A stretch of 64,000 nt of DNA. Origin: Ktedonobacteria bacterium (lineage in GTDB: Bacteria > Chloroflexota > Ktedonobacteria > Ktedonobacterales > JACDGC01). Positions 8,252-62,264 of this stretch are shown here, in pieces. Position 1 is the stretch's first letter; the number at the start of each line of letters is the position of its first letter. A model generated the notes under the pieces. That model saw only the letters and a program-made list of their open reading frames with translations. It did not search any database and was not told the origin of the DNA. The stretch spans positions 1-64,000 of the forward strand of contig DAIDGU010000047.1 in NCBI GenBank assembly GCA_027459785.1, read 5' to 3'. The translations under genes were made by a program, and so were the position numbers.

Positions 8252-8450
8252 TCATACCCTTTGCGGGTGAATAGTATGGATAACGGAGGACAGACATTCC
8301 TGTCTGTCACGCTTCCCTGGAGGACAGCCATTCCTGTCTGTCACGCTTCCCTGGAGGACAGACATTCCTGTCTGTCACGCTTCCCCGGAGGACAGACATT
8401 CCTGTCTGTCCGGTCCCAATGACCACCGTCTTTCCCCGCAAGGGGTATCA
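8252..8450. repeat. Tandem array of 34-base hairpin units inside an inverted repeat
   Basis: Three full 34-base units and a partial fourth occupy 8285-8410. Each contains a hairpin of GACAGACA, loop TTCC, TGTCTGTC (unit two has GACAGCCA), with linker ACGCTTCCCT or CCCC. The array is enclosed by an imperfect inverted repeat, TCATACCCTTTGCGGG at 8252-8267 and CCCCGCAAGGGGTATCA at 8434-8450. Units abut without unique spacers, so this is not CRISPR. It fills the gap between the DinB gene and the permease gene. Confidence 0.9.
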
Positions 8451-16648: not shown

Positions 16649-18121
16649 ATGGCCGCTACTCGTCGCGTACCCCGGATCTTATTCCTGATTGCCGACACGG
16701 GTGGCGGCCATCGTGCTGCGGCGAACGCAGTGCGTGCGGCGATGCAACTCATCGCGCCGGAAACACCCTTGCCCGGCAGCGCGGTGCCAGCGGTGCAGAT
16801 CGATGTCGCCGCGTTGCCTTGCGCCCCCTGCGATTTTCTCCCCGCGGCCTGGGGCGGTGCCATGCGCCCGTGGAATGCAGAGATCCATGATATCATCGCC
16901 GAGTGCGGGCCGCGGCCTCTGCGGCAGACGGCCAATATGTATGGTCCCACCGTCACCAAGCGTCCGCGCGTTTATGCCGGCTTCTGGCATGCCACCAACA
17001 CCCGCGCCACTTATGCCGCCCTCACCGCCGTCACCACGCGCCTGCTGCGCCGCCGCTTTTCGGATATGCTGACGGAGCTGCGACCCGATATTATCGTTTC
17101 CGTGCATGCCCTGCTGACGCAGCCGACGCGCGACATCCTCGACCGGCTTGGCGTACACCTGCCCATCATCACCGTCGTCACCGATCTCGTGCGCTTCCAC
17201 CGTTCATGGGCGCAGCCAGATGTCGCTGTCTGCACCGTCCCCACGCCGGCAGCGCGCGAATTGGTCGAAGCTTTTGGCATGCCACCGGATAAAGTCCGCT
17301 TGTTGGGCATGCCCATCCATCCCAAGTTTTGCCTGCCCACCGCCCCACCCGCGCAGACACGCACCCGCCTGGGCCTGGAGCCGGATCGCTTCACCGTGTT
17401 GCTGGTCGGTGGTGGCGAGGGTGTTGGTCGCCTCAGTGAGATTGCCCATGCGCTCGGCTCCGCCCAGTTGCCGGCGCAACTGATCATCGTCGCGGGGCGC
17501 AACCAGACCTTGCGGGCGACGTTGGCGGCAGAGCGCGCGGCGTTCGACATCCCCACGGCGGTCCTGGGCTTCGTCGAAAACATGCCCGACCTGATGCACG
17601 CCGCCGATGTCATTGTCACCAAGGCCGGTCCCGGCACCATCGCGGAATCTCTGGCATGCGGCTTGCCGATAATCCTGACAGGCGCGATCCCTGGCCAGGA
17701 AGTGGGCAACATTGACTACGTAACCACGCAGCACGTTGGCGTGTTGGCCCGCACCCCGGCGGAAGTCGTCGCGGCGGTGGGCGATCTCGCGGCGAGCACG
17801 CCGGCAGAACTGGCGGCGATCCGGGCGCATGCGCAGTCATTGAGCCATCCCCAGGCGGCGTTCGCCATCGCCAGCCTGATCTTGAGCTACGTCCCCGCGC
17901 CGCGCACGATGTCGGCCTGGGACCGCGTGGTACTCAGCCCGATCCGGCGCAGACGGACGCGCCGTTATCCGCGCGCGTTGCGCCGCCCGCGCGGCGTGCG
18001 CCGCTGGCTGGGTCGCCCGGCCCGCGCCCGGTTGCCGCGCATGCAGCGTCTGCCCGTTGTCGATGGTTTACAGCGCCTGCCGCTGCTGATTCGTCGCCGG
18101 CGGCGTCGCCAGCCGTCATGA
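16649..18121 (+). CDS. GT28-type glycolipid glycosyltransferase (MGDG synthase-like)
   Basis: 490-residue GT-B enzyme of the monogalactosyl/glucosyl-diacylglycerol synthase family, which transfers a sugar from a nucleotide donor to diacylglycerol at the membrane face. Features are the N-terminal FLIADTGGGHRAAANA loop, the MGDG-type acceptor domain, VGGGEGVG linker, and the donor-site motif TKAGPGTIAESLACGLP with GQEVGN. The C-terminal 70 residues are extremely Arg-rich (RRRRTRRYPRALRR), likely a membrane or nucleic-acid contacting tail. GGAGG precedes the ATG. It is followed directly by a phosphatase gene. Donor and acceptor specificity cannot be told. Confidence 0.82.
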   Translation: MAATRRVPRILFLIADTGGGHRAAANAVRAAMQLIAPETPLPGSAVPAVQIDVAALPCAPCDFLPAAWGGAMRPWNAEIHDIIAECGPRPLRQTANMYGPTVTKRPRVYAGFWHATNTRATYAALTAVTTRLLRRRFSDMLTELRPDIIVSVHALLTQPTRDILDRLGVHLPIITVVTDLVRFHRSWAQPDVAVCTVPTPAARELVEAFGMPPDKVRLLGMPIHPKFCLPTAPPAQTRTRLGLEPDRFTVLLVGGGEGVGRLSEIAHALGSAQLPAQLIIVAGRNQTLRATLAAERAAFDIPTAVLGFVENMPDLMHAADVIVTKAGPGTIAESLACGLPIILTGAIPGQEVGNIDYVTTQHVGVLARTPAEVVAAVGDLAASTPAELAAIRAHAQSLSHPQAAFAIASLILSYVPAPRTMSAWDRVVLSPIRRRRTRRYPRALRRPRGVRRWLGRPARARLPRMQRLPVVDGLQRLPLLIRRRRRRQPS

Positions 18122-18141
18122 TTCACCCAGGAGGTTCCCGC

Positions 18142-18855
18142 GTGTCGAATCCCACTGATGCCCCCCCCGACGTTCCCCAGCACGAACCATTGCCCCCCGA
18201 AGCGACATCCGGTGCCGGCGCGGTCACGCCGCCCCCGCCCGCGCAGGCAGACGAAAAAGCGTACAAGCAAACATTTTTGCGCTGGTTCGGGTATGGTACC
18301 GTGCGGGTGCTGTATCGCCCGTGGACGCGCATCGCCGCCAACTGGTTCCCTGAAGGTTCGCGCCAGGCCCGAATCATGGAGCGCCTGGGCGTCCCCTTGC
18401 CGGATCGCCTGGACCTGAGCTGGATTACGCCGGATATCGCCGTTGGCGGGCGGGTGCGCGTGGGGGACATCCCCAGCCTGCAACGAGTGGGGGTGACGCG
18501 CGTGGTGGATGTGCGCCAGGAACACCGCGACGACGAGGCAGCGCTCAACAGGCACGGCATCGAGCTGCTTTATCTGCCGACGCCGGATACCTATCCCCTC
18601 AGCCTGGCCGATCTGCGGCGCGGCGCGGAGTGGATCAATGCGCAGCGCCAGGCGCACCAGCGGGTGCTGATTCACTGCGAACATGGCGTGGGGCGCAGCG
18701 TCCTCCTCGCCGCCGCCGCGCTCGTCTGCGAGGGCTATTCCGCGCACGCCGCCTTCGACCTGATCGGGCGCAAACGCTGGCAAGCCTCGCCCAATCACCG
18801 CCAGGTCGCCCGCCTGAGCGAATTCGCCCGCGCCGGCGCATGCCAGGGCGATTAA
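18142..18855 (+). CDS. Dual-specificity/tyrosine phosphatase-like protein
   Basis: 237-residue Cys-dependent phosphatase. The signature HCxxGxxRS is complete as HCEHGVGRS, with a general-acid Asp candidate in the PTPDTYPLS loop. The N-terminal 45 residues are Pro-rich and probably disordered. An amphipathic stretch WFGYGTVRVLYRPWTRI precedes the DLSWITPDIAVGG domain start, recalling phosphatases that act on phosphatidylglycerophosphate-like lipids, so a lipid substrate is possible beside the glycolipid synthase. The GTG at 18142 is chosen because AGGAGG is 7 bases upstream; an ATG at 18118 overlaps the previous stop but lacks an RBS. Confidence 0.8.
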   Translation: MSNPTDAPPDVPQHEPLPPEATSGAGAVTPPPPAQADEKAYKQTFLRWFGYGTVRVLYRPWTRIAANWFPEGSRQARIMERLGVPLPDRLDLSWITPDIAVGGRVRVGDIPSLQRVGVTRVVDVRQEHRDDEAALNRHGIELLYLPTPDTYPLSLADLRRGAEWINAQRQAHQRVLIHCEHGVGRSVLLAAAALVCEGYSAHAAFDLIGRKRWQASPNHRQVARLSEFARAGACQGD

Positions 18856-19190
18856 GAGACGGCGGGCGGATGCCGATGCGATGGGGACGGCGGGCGGTTG
18901 AAGAGGCAACGGGGACGGCGGGCGGTTGCCGGTGCGGATGGGGGACGGCGGGCGGTTGAAACCGCGCCTAAGCGCCTGGCGGCGACGAAGTCCGCCGACG
19001 CGGACTGGGATCCTAACCCGCGTAGGCGGGTTTCGTGGCGGCACGCCCTTAGGCGCGATTTCAATCGCCCGCGCGTCTCCGCCCGCCCGCGCGTCTCCGC
19101 CCGCCCGCTGTCTCCGCCCGCCCGCTGTCCCCGCCCGCCCGCTGTCCCCGCCCGCCCGCTGTCCCCGCCCGCCGTCCCCGGCGTAGGCAT
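18856..19190. repeat. Giant inverted repeat with central 125-base palindrome (element E2)
   Basis: Centred on GGATCC at 19008-19013, the region 18948-19073 is an imperfect palindrome with arms of about 62 bases (GCGGGCGGTTGAAACCGC and CGATTTCAATCGCCCGC at its ends, several nested hairpins within). Left of it are three to four direct copies of GGGGACGGCGGGCGG; right of it are about six copies of the complement, GCCCGCTGTCCCC. The whole 320-base region therefore forms one long inverted repeat. It fills the gap between the phosphatase gene and coaE. Confidence 0.85.
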
Positions 19191-19257
19191 AACTGGATCG
19201 CTGCTCGTCCCCCCGTCCGCTCCTTTCGCACAGTGAACTTTTGATACAAGCGAGGAT

Positions 19258-19854
19258 ATGATGCCGCATTTGCTGGGTCTGACGGGCAACATCGCCTGTG
19301 GCAAAACCACTATCGGCCAGATGGTGCTGGAACTGGGCGCGGCGCGCTACATCGACGCCGATGCGGTGGTACATGAACTGTATGCGCCGGGGCAGCCGAT
19401 CCATGCCGCCGTCCTGGCGGCTTTCGGGCGCGCGATCCTCACGCCGGATGGGCAGATCGACCGGCGGGCGCTGGGGGCGCGCGTCTTCAGCGATCCAGCC
19501 GCGTTGCAGCGCCTCGAAGGCATCGTGCATCCGGCGGTGCATGCCGCCGTGGCGGCGCAGCTGACAGATCTCCCACCCGATGCTGTCGCTGTCATCGATG
19601 CGGTGAAGCTGCTGGAAGGCGGCATGGCGCGGCAGTGCGAGCAGGTGTGGCTGGTGGTGTGCGACCCCGCCGAGGAGCGTCGCCGGCTACTCACGGATCG
19701 CGGGCTGAAGCCGGCGGAGGCCGACGCGCGCCTGGCCGCGCAGCCGGATAATGCGGCACGCCGCCCGCTGGTCGCTGCCGTCATCGACAACTCCGGCACG
19801 CTGGTCGCCACGCGGGCGCAGGTCGCCGCCGCCTGGGCGCGCTGGCGCTCCTAA
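19258..19854 (+). CDS. coaE: Dephospho-CoA kinase
   Basis: Last step of coenzyme A synthesis, ATP-dependent phosphorylation of the 3'-hydroxyl of dephospho-CoA. 198 residues, normal length. P-loop GNIACGKTT, the DADAVVHELYAPGQP substrate segment, and the HPAVHAAV and PLLEGG-like (VKLLEGG) stretches are conserved; the lid region holds RRRLLTDRGL. Two adjacent ATGs (19258, 19261) are possible; GAGGAT directly upstream fits the second slightly better. Its end overlaps by four bases with the converging DUF6391-like gene. Confidence 0.93.
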   Translation: MMPHLLGLTGNIACGKTTIGQMVLELGAARYIDADAVVHELYAPGQPIHAAVLAAFGRAILTPDGQIDRRALGARVFSDPAALQRLEGIVHPAVHAAVAAQLTDLPPDAVAVIDAVKLLEGGMARQCEQVWLVVCDPAEERRRLLTDRGLKPAEADARLAAQPDNAARRPLVAAVIDNSGTLVATRAQVAAAWARWRS

Positions 19855-24283: not shown

Positions 24284-24634
24284 GCGGCCCCATCCCGTCG
24301 CGTCACGGGAACCCTGCCCCCCGGCCCCCTCCCCATCTGCGGATGGAGAGGGGGTGATCAGCCATCGGGATACCGGAGGACAGACATTCTTGTCTGTCAC
24401 TCTGTCCGTGGGGCGGACATTCTTGTCCGCCAGTCTGTCCGTGGGGCGGACATTCCTGTCCGCCAAGTGACAGATGGGCATGCCTGTCCGCTAGATACCC
24501 CGCCACGTTACACATCCCCAGCCCAGGCGTTATACCGATGTGAGGATTCACGGATAGGCACCTCAGAATACCATCAACCCCCCGATGCGGCGTGCGCCGT
24601 GGCGGCGGGATGATGTCGATACGAGGGCTTTCCT
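24284..24634. repeat. Gap filled with two repeat families
   Basis: 24301-24356 is a CTCCATC/GATGGGGAG palindrome (with the GGGTTCCCGTGA extension also found inside lysC). 24375-24491 holds four TTCC/TTCT-loop hairpins: one with GACAGACA stems, two with GGCGGACA stems separated by AGTCTGTCC, and one degenerate. The remaining 140 bases to the next ATG show no gene; they probably carry the promoter of the sugar dehydrogenase gene. Confidence 0.85.
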
Positions 24635-43961: not shown

Positions 43962-45470
43962 TCAGTTTTCCGATAGGACATTCGGCTGGTGGTGATAGCC
44001 ACTCCGGCGCTTTGGTGAGAACAACAGCGTAAGGATGCTGAGCAATAACGTGTAAAACGGCAGCGCAAAGACGCCGACCGCTGCCGGCCAGGCCAGGCGA
44101 CGCGGCAGGGGTAGCAAGAGGCGCAACCCCACGGCATTCAGGTACAACAGCGCCACGGCGGCGAGGAGCATCCATGCAGTCCCGTTCCATTTCTGCGCGC
44201 GAATAAGATCCCCGGCCAGCACCAGCCAGGGCAAGAGCAACACGATGAAATAATGCGGCCACGCCAGCGGCGAGATCATCAGCATCACCGGCATCGCCAA
44301 CAGCCAGGCGCGGTCAGCATCGGAAATGAGAAGGCGGACAGGAATGTCCGCCCCACGAATGATGCTGTCTGCCCCACGGTTGATGTTGTCCGCCCCACGG
44401 TCTGTAGGGGCAATCCCTTGTGGTTGCCCTGTTCCAGGGGATGGTTGCCCTGCCCACGCACGCCACACCAACAGCCCGACGAGCGCCAGTGCACCCAGCA
44501 CATACAGCGGCGTCACAATGCCCGGCGCGCTCAGCACGGGATGAATCGTGTTGCTGCCGACGAAGATCTGGCCCAGCCAGCCGCGCAGCGACACGTTGTG
44601 CGCGTCGTTGATCCAGTCGGCGCTGGCCCCAGGAGCGGCGCGAGTGACATAGCGCAAGTATTCTGCCGGTCCGATGGCGGGCAAGGTCAGCAGCGTGACG
44701 CCGATGCCAGCGATGATGCCGCCTGCCGCCACGCGCCACTCCCGGCGCAGCAGTGGATCGATGAAAAGCAAGATGGGATAGAGGCGGATGAGCGTGGCCA
44801 ATGCCAGCCATGCGCCCGCCGCCCCCGGTTGGTCGTGCCGCCGCGCCCGCCAGGCCAGCGCCAGCAACAGCAGCACCAGCGGACTGATCTGCGCTTCCAG
44901 CCAGGTATCCAGCAGGGGGGGCCAGAAGGCCAGCGCGGCCAGGCCCAGCGCGGCCCAGCGCGGCGCGAGATCCGCCAGCGCCTCGTCCCAGATGAGCCAC
45001 AGCGCGGCGACCAGCGCGGCCAGCATCAGCAGATCCCACACCAGCGCGACGGTGCCGACCGGCAGCCAGGCCAGCGGCACCAGCAGCAGCAGCGCCAGCG
45101 GCGGATGCGGCGAGTAGCGCAGCACCCCACACGCATCGCTGGGCGCATACGGATCATGCCCGTGCAGCAATTGCGCCGCACTGATGTAGTCGCGGCACAG
45201 GTCGCCCCCGTTCGCCGCCGCGCCCTGCCGTGACAGCACGATCAACACAACCGACACCGCCGCGAATGCGCCCAGCACCAACCAGCGCCAGCGGGGTGAG
45301 GCAGCCGGGCGCGGGGACGGCGGGCGGTCCGGTAGCGGGCGGTTGAAACCGCGCCTAAGGGCTGTTGGCCACGCTGTAGGGGCGTACCCTTGTGGTCGCC
45401 CTCGCCGTCGCGGACTGGGATACGATTTGATGCGAATCAATTTCTCTATCCTGGTGAAACGAGTATGCAC
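43962..45470 (-). CDS. GT87-like polyprenyl-phosphate-mannose mannosyltransferase
   Basis: Polytopic membrane protein (about ten hydrophobic segments) of the DUF2029/GT87 type, which transfers mannose from a lipid-linked donor to cell-surface glycans. Signature region: GGDLCRDYISAAQLLHGHDPY, the acidic first loop, and EAQISPLVLLLLALAWRAR. Residues about 339-380 (GQPSPGTGQPQGIAPTDRGA and onward) are encoded by repeat DNA between two membrane helices. Codons 15-60 also come from a repeat (E3), so the given GTG start at 45470 is doubtful; the conserved part begins about residue 60. No ribosome binding site is clear. Confidence 0.72.
   Translation of the reverse strand: MHTRFTRIEKLIRIKSYPSPRRRGRPQGYAPTAWPTALRRGFNRPLPDRPPSPRPAASPRWRWLVLGAFAAVSVVLIVLSRQGAAANGGDLCRDYISAAQLLHGHDPYAPSDACGVLRYSPHPPLALLLLVPLAWLPVGTVALVWDLLMLAALVAALWLIWDEALADLAPRWAALGLAALAFWPPLLDTWLEAQISPLVLLLLALAWRARRHDQPGAAGAWLALATLIRLYPILLFIDPLLRREWRVAAGGIIAGIGVTLLTLPAIGPAEYLRYVTRAAPGASADWINDAHNVSLRGWLGQIFVGSNTIHPVLSAPGIVTPLYVLGALALVGLLVWRAWAGQPSPGTGQPQGIAPTDRGADNINRGADSIIRGADIPVRLLISDADRAWLLAMPVMLMISPLAWPHYFIVLLLPWLVLAGDLIRAQKWNGTAWMLLAAVALLYLNAVGLRLLLPLPRRLAWPAAVGVFALPFYTLLLSILTLLFSPKRRSGYHHQPNVLSEN
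44333..44455. repeat. Repeat block inside the GT87-like gene
   Basis: On the plus strand: GGCGGACAGGAATGTCCGCC hairpin (44333-44352), two further 21-base units ending TGCCCCACG and CCGCCCCACG, then a GTAGGGGCAATCCC..TGGTTGCCC element with a degenerate second copy. The block is in frame with the glycosyltransferase gene and encodes a hydrophilic loop. Confidence 0.8.
45309..45430. repeat. Composite repeat element E3
   Basis: GGGGACGGCGGGCGG, GGGCGGTTGAAACCGCGCC, TAAGGGC, then TGTAGGGGCGTACCCTTGTG with GTCGCCC, then CGCCGTCGCGGACTGGGAT. This is the inverted counterpart of E1 at 12.4 kb. It overlaps the proposed N-terminal codons of the glycosyltransferase gene. Confidence 0.7.
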
Positions 45471-51447: not shown

Positions 51448-51781
51448 GCGCTCCTCTAATCGTGTGTTTCACAGCGACTTCTTTTGCATAGCACCAGCGC
51501 GGGAACAAAGCCGCTGCCATTCCCGCGCACCATATTGCGAACCGGTTGCGCAGGTAACACGCTGTAGCTGAGCGAAGCGTTTCATCAATTTCTCATGCTG
51601 GGGATCAGTAGCCAAGAGGTACTATATACGCATCGCTTGCTCAATTGCCGAAGGCAAGTGATTCGCGCAGCAGACAGCAATCACCGTGGGGCAGACAGCA
51701 ATCACCGTGGGGCGGACATTCCTGTCCGCCGCTTGCTAGGCAGACCCTGAGCCGTCATCACGAAGGCTGCGCGGGCGCGGG
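51448..51781. repeat. Gap with 21-base tandem repeat and TTCC hairpin
   Basis: A unit CGTGGGGCAGACAGCAATCA (+C) at 51685-51705 is preceded by a partial copy and followed by CGTGGGGCGGACATTCCTGT and CCGCC, the hairpin at 51711-51730. The same unit order is found, inverted, inside the GT87-like gene. The remaining part (51448-51660) is AT-richer and probably holds promoters for the minus-strand lipoprotein gene; no gene is seen. Confidence 0.7.
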
Positions 51782-55965: not shown

Positions 55966-55990
55966 CACTGCATCCCCCTGTCCGCCGAAT

Positions 55991-56046
55991 GACAGACAAG
56001 AATGTCTGTCCTCCAGATATCCGTGGGGCGGACATTCCTGTCCGCC
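55991..56046. repeat. Pair of TTCC/TTCT-loop hairpins with different stems
   Basis: GACAGACAAGAATGTCTGTC (55991-56010) and GGCGGACATTCCTGTCCGCC (56027-56046) lie 16 bases apart, in the gap between the CoA transferase and PPOX genes. They show the two stem versions of the family side by side. Confidence 0.85.
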
Positions 56047-61854: not shown

Positions 61855-62264
61855 GAGATCCCTCTCTTTTCGGCGGGCGCGGCGCATCCTGCGCGTTCAA
61901 CGGCCCGTCGCATTGTTATTGTGCCACTGCAAAGCGGCTTCTGTCAACAGACAAGGAAGCCGGGGGTGGCGTGATCGTGGGGGATTAGGGCGGACCATGG
62001 AGGACCAGGGCGACCACAACGAGGACGAGGGCGACCACAACGAGGACAAGGGCGACCACAAGGGTACGCCCCTACAGACCCGATGGCGAGCGGCAATGTC
62101 GCGTCCCTCCCAATGCCCGGCTTTTTCATGGTCATATACTTGAGCTTCAGGTATTTCGCAGGAAATTTCCAAAGAATCGCGGGCAAAATCGGCAAATTCA
62201 TGTTATGATAGAGAAACACAATCGCGTGTTGCATCTGCAATCAACGAGAGGAGCAAACAAGCCG
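61855..62264. repeat. Gap with GGCGACCACAA tandem repeat and promoter region
   Basis: 410 bases between divergent genes. 61992-62077 holds a 21-base tandem unit GGGCGACCACAACGAGGACG (+A), three copies (the first imperfect), joined to a GGGCGACCACAAGGGTACGC (+CCCTAC) core. The AT-richer part 62140-62220 includes TGT-TATGAT (62201-62209), an extended -10 for the EF-G-like gene. Nothing coding is seen. Confidence 0.75.
62201..62209 (+). promoter_or_regulatory. Extended -10 promoter for the EF-G-like gene
   Basis: TGT followed by TATGAT, 55 bases before the ATG, matching the extended -10 pattern used elsewhere in the window. Confidence 0.45.

Follow-up and report, generated by a model that had tools for sequence, protein, structure and literature searches.

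The closest described systems are REPIN/REP dimers with their RAYT partners (REPtrons), in which palindromic units occur as high-copy inverted dimers of patchy distribution and a Y1/HUH transposase gene is flanked by the same units. IS608 and TnpA-REP are the models for the reading of hairpins on a single-stranded lagging-strand template and for cleavage by the tyrosine. Bacterial MITEs are short, gene-less elements with inverted ends related to an autonomous element of the same genome, and their usual partner is a DDE enzyme. In TIRtrons, according to the sections of the source consulted, a Y1 gene (TIRYT) lies between terminal inverted repeats, some of them partly self-complementary, and solo and dimeric copies of these repeats occur elsewhere in the genome (PMC3733652). 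The TIR motif is given, in the sections consulted, as GGGGWSAS. In the consulted part of the later classification, 26 TIRYTs are distributed over subclasses 2.1 (20), 2.2 (4) and 2.5 (2), with none in subclass 1.2 (PMC6006769). The same part of that work defines subclass 1.2 of TnpA-Y1 as proteins of ~148 aa with the HUH motif DH[IV]H, W-Q and Y---Q--HH, described in 2018 as IS200-related yet without IS properties or REP partners; they are listed as low in copy number, generally without IS200-type end structures and with REP “no” (PMC6006769, Table 1). In the literature searched, no REP-like or terminal repeats are reported for subclass 1.2, and neither a name nor a report was found for the palindrome sequences presented here.

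The window, the whole stretch of 64,000 nucleotides analysed here, contains a 402-nt gap between a phosphatase gene and coaE that is nearly all occupied by nested inverted repeats. This locus is very probably a non-autonomous element, a pair of Y1 (HUH, single-tyrosine) transposon ends that adjoin with no gene between them and are moved in trans by a subclass-1.2 TnpA. The features of the locus, and one related feature elsewhere in the window, are as follows.

18118..18855, + strand: upstream neighbour, dual-specificity-phosphatase-like gene (DSPc)
18855..18949, + strand: left outer array of G-rich units (GGGACGGCGGGCGG plus a locus-specific spacer), period 28 (tandem array 18858-18958)
18950..19072 (123 nt), no strand: core element, a gene-less inverted (tail-to-tail) dimer of two half-modules
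18950-19006, + strand: left half, 58.0 bits
18952..18965, + strand: left hairpin 1, GCGGT-TGAA-ACCGC (from sequence and covariation)
18989..19006, + strand: left hairpin 2, type A, AGTCCGC-CGAC-GCGGACT (from sequence and covariation)
19007..19014, no strand: central spacer carrying GGATCC, the position taken by the transposase gene in the autonomous relative L080
19015-19070, - strand: right half, 56.7 bits
19015..19032, - strand: right hairpin 2, type B, AACCCGC-GTAG-GCGGGTT (from sequence and covariation)
19055..19068, - strand: right hairpin 1, GCGAT-TTCA-ATCGC, with TTAG 2 nt inside its foot (from sequence and covariation)
19073..19180, - strand: right outer array in inverted orientation, period 17 (tandem array 19066-19173)
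19258..19854, + strand: downstream neighbour coaE (PF01121)
45337..45373, + strand: second half of the same family, truncated, with one GGGGACGGCGGGCGG unit at 45313

The whole palindromic element extends from 18855 to 19180. An imperfect palindrome of 125 nt (18948-19072) has its GGATCC centre at 19009-19014; its inverted arms, 18948-18981 and 19039-19072, are 34 nt long and 85% complementary, and inner pairing completes the palindrome, which is imperfect because transitions separate its halves (AGTCC..GGACT versus AACCC..GGGTT). Predicted folding of 18850-19195 reaches -232.7 kcal/mol (z -8.10; 0/100 shuffles as good), while the core folds with a z of -8.03 (0/200 shuffles as good). The sequence-only reading, which had described an inverted repeat before coaE with a palindrome of about 125 bases centred on GGATCC, is thus borne out as to arms, centre and folding. 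Its description of a 320-base inverted repeat is loose, since the outer arms are built of unequal units (28 versus 17 nt) and pair solely in runs. In each half-module a linker joins the outer hairpin 1, with a 5-bp stem and a TGAA/TTCA loop, to the inner hairpin 2, whose stem is 7 bp and whose loop is 4 nt. Hairpin 2 exists in two types, A (AGTCCGC....GCGGACT) and B (AACCCGC....GCGGGTT).

The element belongs to a family dispersed through the host genome (4.84 Mb, 88 contigs). The sequence-only reading had proposed a genome-wide search for homologous palindromes; with the 126-nt core as query, this search returned 40 scored copies (40 of 274 candidates were scored), and a strict half-element pattern matched 166 times, with 0 matches for its reversed control. 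The end motif GGGCGGTTGAAACCGCGCC occurs 270 times at up to 2 mismatches, whereas its reversed pattern gave 0 and 1. In 464 kb sampled evenly, including the window, there are 17 halves; these are mostly solo, which makes the half the basic unit, of which the window copy is an inverted dimer. Of the scored copies, 12/40 are no more than 300 nt from the end of their contig, where ~1% would be expected, and exact array lengths are uncertain for that reason. At the junction itself, the phosphatase gene and coaE adjoin in the nearest congener (L050), with no element and at most ~80 nt between the ends of homology, a contrast between congeners that is resolved more coarsely than the nucleotide. The copy was therefore gained or lost within the genus. 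Together with the dispersed family, this agrees with the earlier suggestion of recent spread.

Pairing within the family identifies what is conserved. Only the 30 best-scoring copies were fetched, which biases the set toward similar copies; 28 of them entered the alignment after two truncated ones (L008, L023) were dropped, and they were gathered by sequence similarity rather than by pairing, then aligned and their pairs counted. The four small hairpins are paired in 99.4% of cells, with 9 pairs changed on both sides and 67 compensatory cells, a level of covariation that 0/500 shuffles attained. The long arm-to-arm pairing, by contrast, is present in 89.7% of cells and its co-variation score lies under all 500 shuffles. 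Since covariation is found in the small hairpins and not in the long arms, the conserved objects are the four short hairpins; a single long hairpin as the conserved unit is rejected, and the earlier proposal that the long palindrome is kept for function is not supported. The long palindrome is a by-product of two related halves placed back to back. Dimers are of type A+B in 21/28 copies (two of the 21 with one changed letter group), A+A in 7/28 and B+B in 0/28, which exceeds the mixing expected if halves combined at random (P about 0.002), although the copies are related and the value is suggestive only. Mixed dimers, being less perfect palindromes, may be more persistent. In genomes G010 and G016 the linker of the halves often contains a third GC-rich hairpin of variable length, e.g. 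GGGAAGCGCCGAGGCGCTTCC.

Other repeats were noticed alongside the family. A second dispersed palindrome, GGACAGACATTCCTGTCTGTCC, has six copies in the window at up to 3 mismatches (0 expected), at 8288-8411, 24378-24399 and 55990-56011, and a 34-bp tandem array at 8285-8410 accounts for four of these; the right flank of the family copy L027 also has a sequence like GGACAGACATTCCTGTCTGTCC. The repeat TACTGACCACGGC(A/G)TAAC..ACGAAAG directly adjoins the element at three loci (L009, L030, L013), perhaps as a favoured neighbour or target, and has no copy in the window. Short tandem repeats occupy 24383-24465, 44345-44401, 51670-51718 and 62000-62061 of the window, some with units containing CCACGG or CCGTGG.

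Two cyanobacterial copies of the element adjoin a gene for a 150-aa Y1 transposase (Pfam Y1_Tnp), and two transposase genes of this clade (L079, L080) are encoded elsewhere in the window genome. The transposase (L094:779-1228) scores 70.6 bits against the NCBI IS200 model, above the cut-off of 55, and 28.6 bits against the RAYT model (NCBIfam NF047646), well below the curated cut-off of 80. Its nearest protein relatives and nearest solved structures are those of IS200/IS605 (TnpA-Y1 subclass 1.1), including the ISHp608 transposase (E 6.5e-14 and weaker, eight distinct sequences). Homologues of the clade in the window genome and its relatives stand apart from other Y1 proteins, the weakest at E 1.9e-24 and the next Y1 protein at 3.1e-10. 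Nine proteins from both phyla share DHxH, WQ and Y--Q--HH, the residues D54 H55 H57, W95 Q96, Y115, Q119 and H122 H123 (first-row numbering) being invariant in 9/9; the middle HUH residue is M in both proteins of the window genome. The clade is assigned to TnpA-Y1 subclass 1.2, as judged from these predicted signature motifs rather than from the published HMM. In a tree, 36 subclass-1.2 proteins of both phyla form one clade (support 99/89), although its branches are long and the 1.2/1.1 label requires four changes, so that the two classes do not occupy the clean sides of one branch. L309 was grouped with 1.2 by score despite its motif YIENQ.

In the same genome, L080 (contig C23) provides an autonomous counterpart of the window copy. 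Here identical 60-bp inverted ends enclose a subclass-1.2 gene in an element of 771 bp. Each end forms a half-module, and its linker and inner hairpin agree with the right half of the window element at 41/51 positions; hairpin 1 has one internal mismatch and the module is diverged. A search with the L080 end recovered two gene-less dimers and, at 88% over 40 nt (E 1.4e-7), the window element. As in bacterial MITEs, a short gene-less copy thus has inverted ends matching those of a transposase-bearing element of the same genome, although the partner here is an HUH single-strand transposase. At L079 (contig C57) the gene is bracketed by a diverged pair of modules, for which no alignment with the window halves rose above shuffles; the strict half scan found none near L079 or L080, and the modules appeared only once loops were relaxed. 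In its construction the window dimer thus corresponds to such an element minus its gene. In the flanks of the L080 element, the one element inspected, no obvious target-site duplication was visible by eye, and family junctions are obscured by G-rich arrays.

The link between module and transposase extends beyond the host. Strict double-hairpin halves occur within 600 bp of the gene at 35/70 subclass-1.2 loci versus 0/38 1.1-like loci, whose proteins are without the HH after Y---Q; 11 loci of uncertain class (1/11 with a half) were left out of this count, and coaE loci had halves within the same distance in 2/23 cases, one of them the window itself. When loci from genomes chosen for the element are removed, the figures are 19/48 versus 0/38 (p 2e-6). 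Of the 46 cyanobacterial subclass-1.2 loci, 22 belong to element-chosen genomes and 24 were drawn evenly; halves are present at 16/22 and 9/24 of them, respectively. A relaxed detector found modules at 54/70 subclass-1.2 loci (29 on both sides) versus 4/38 1.1-like loci, with 1.6% in shuffled flanks. Independently of hairpins, the gene has a repeat of score 20 or more on each side at 48/70 versus 2/38 loci, and an inverted repeat of the same score spans it at 37/70 versus 2/38, one of the two 1.1-like loci (L318) being probably a 1.2 gene fragment. The stems themselves differ, with 32 distinct stem pairs near transposase genes, while the architecture is constant.

Genomes that carry the element also tend to carry the transposase. 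Among 61 relatives, in which at most 14 element candidates per genome were scored, the clade is present in 7 genomes, of which 6 of 7 are element-positive versus 10/54 of the others (p 9e-4). In 301 genomes of the window's phylum, taken to be Chloroflexota, at least 2 halves were found in 6/10 with a strong transposase versus 7/291 others (p 3e-7), and in 194 cyanobacterial genomes the transposase was present in 5/7 element-positive genomes versus 16/187 others (p 1.7e-4); the two draws have no genome in common, and all these p values are optimistic because the genomes are related. Seven of the 13 genomes with at least 2 halves are without a strong transposase (G001, G007, G008, G012, G018, G020, G026), and in the cyanobacterium G319, with 41 halves, a strong transposase was not found. 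Such element-rich genomes may be incomplete or may have lost the gene.

A pattern for the cyanobacterial repeats matched at least 120 stretches, and all 80 among the matches listed are cyanobacterial by record title. The copies display the same hairpin order and the same A/B pairing as in the window (e.g. L117, L086). Of the cyanobacterial halves near transposase genes, 46/55 have a linker of 14 nt. The 4-mer located 2 nt inside hairpin 1 is most commonly GTAG in Cyanobacteria (24 occurrences), although the CTACA part of the pattern favours GTAG at the loci that it matched; in the window's phylum TCAG and CCAG are among the commonest, and GTAG was seen once near transposase genes. Two cyanobacterial transposase genes (L293, L295) have one-sided tandem arrays of module copies with a spacing of ~164 and 98 nt, and growth by arrays may be general. 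In Bacteroidota, a Persicobacter plasmid (L320) has a double hairpin on each side of its subclass-1.2 gene, at about 1879-1924 and 2457-2514, the upstream one consisting of CACCCCAAAGGGGTG and CGATGGGTGTTAACCCATCG, while the homologue on a Bernardetia plasmid (L319) has no double hairpins. This hints at a third phylum, although two homologues are too few to conclude.

The outer arrays are a distinct layer of the host copies. The unit GGGGACGGCGGGCGG occurs 15 times in the window at up to 2 mismatches (shuffle mean 1.20; 0/100 shuffles reach 15), and 9/15 occurrences lie inside the element, four on the + strand (18855-18955) and five on the - strand (19101-19179), in keeping with the direct copies on the left and complementary copies on the right seen at the outset. 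G-rich units on both flanks of the core point inward. In the family, the left flank contains GGGCGG in 21/28 copies and CCGCCC in 0/28, the right flank CCGCCC in 16 of 28 and GGGCGG in 1; the corresponding background windows for the GGGCGG / CCGCCC test gave 18 and 13 of 189. Spacers of the arrays differ from locus to locus, and at L003, L014 and L021 the left and right arms are closest to each other among loci. Copies in relatives are mostly without outer arrays, on inspection of those examined. The outer GACG/CGTC of the arrays was considered as a CGTC-type REP foot and rejected, as it is on the wrong side and inspection of relatives did not reveal it. Transposition alone leaves the outer arrays unexplained; once inserted, the arms probably lengthen through slippage and by copying one another.

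With the transposase and its flanks described, the locus can be placed among the known systems. It shares with REPIN/RAYT the organisation set out at the opening, and differs from it in having two hairpins per unit, a variable foot (TTAG, TCAG, CCAG, and GTAG in Cyanobacteria), a transposase of subclass 1.2 rather than class 2, and gene-bracketing inverted ends at some loci. The tail-to-tail dimers, the high copy number and the prevalence of GTAG in Cyanobacteria would fit a plain GTAG-type REP/REPIN that is served by a RAYT and lies within the known REP families. This reading is very unlikely, as GTAG-type REPs have GT[AG]G 0-2 nt 5' of a hairpin whose basal stem is 7 bp or longer, whereas the window copy has TTAG 2 nt before a hairpin 1 of 5 bp and the units regularly include a second hairpin, GTAG was found once near transposases of the window's phylum, and the transposase falls well below the RAYT cut-off (28.6 versus 80) while exceeding that for IS200 (70.6 versus 55). 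Like TIRtrons, 37/70 subclass-1.2 loci have the Y1 gene bracketed by long inverted repeats, and it is the subclass assignment of TIRYTs, in the consulted part of PMC6006769, that sets the two apart. The flanking modules contradict the published description of subclass-1.2 flanks, not the protein assignment. In its mode of working the system resembles both REPINs/REPtrons and TIRtrons.

Three further explanations bear on the locus itself. The hairpins might form a structural RNA or terminator that stabilises mRNA ends or stops transcription between the phosphatase gene and coaE, as an intergenic site, strong folding and co-varying hairpins would allow; this is unlikely, given that the same junction in the congener is without the element, the module tracks the transposase clade, copies share no conserved gene context by inspection, and no Rfam family reached its gathering score (the best of the sub-threshold matches, a miRNA hairpin model, scored 48.2 bits versus 168). 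A secondary RNA role beside mobility is possible. A DDE or other transposase could instead move the element as its MITE, with subclass-1.2 Y1 genes as hitch-hikers inserted beside it. Many element-bearing genomes are without a Y1 gene and the transposase screen covered the Y1 family alone, yet such a partner is decidedly unlikely when modules flank Y1 genes in two phyla with stems that vary by family and a constant architecture, when 1.1-like Y1 genes have none (0/38), and when L080 has identical inverted ends. An assembly artefact in which one arm was duplicated in silico, the eventuality against which the sequence-only reading had wished to guard, would accord with the excess of copies near contig ends but is barely credible: the left and right arms are built of different units, the organisation recurs at many independent loci, each with flanks of its own, 18/30 fetched loci are internal to contigs with flanks that differ on both sides, and the one-contig genomes G008 and G193 also have the family.

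For the preferred reading, a gene-less Y1 element moved in trans, the following route can be proposed from the analysis. The subclass-1.2 TnpA-Y1 would most likely recognise the hairpins on single-stranded DNA, on the lagging-strand template, and its tyrosine would cut near the foot of hairpin 1, where the four nt positioned 2 nt inside (TTAG in the window) may be a guide. The folded single-stranded dimer would then be carried elsewhere in trans, and the outer G-rich arrays would lengthen afterwards as proposed above. The dimer may have arisen by deletion of the gene or by assembly of two ends.

On balance, subclass 1.2 seems to be a distinct cross-phylum system whose double-hairpin ends are read by shape and spacing (a TGAA-type loop, a 14-nt linker and a 7-bp inner hairpin), with stems that drift along with the enzyme, large gene-less dimer families in both Cyanobacteria and the window's phylum, and arms that, in the host genome, grow outward by mutual copying. 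Palindromes of this kind disrupt assemblies and are liable to be taken for functional RNAs, and an abundant class of them in intergenic regions would be explained. An orphan branch of HUH transposases would gain a concrete DNA substrate, testable with synthetic oligonucleotides, and the enzyme/hairpin pairs with differing stems would constitute a natural series for how a single-strand transposase reads shape.
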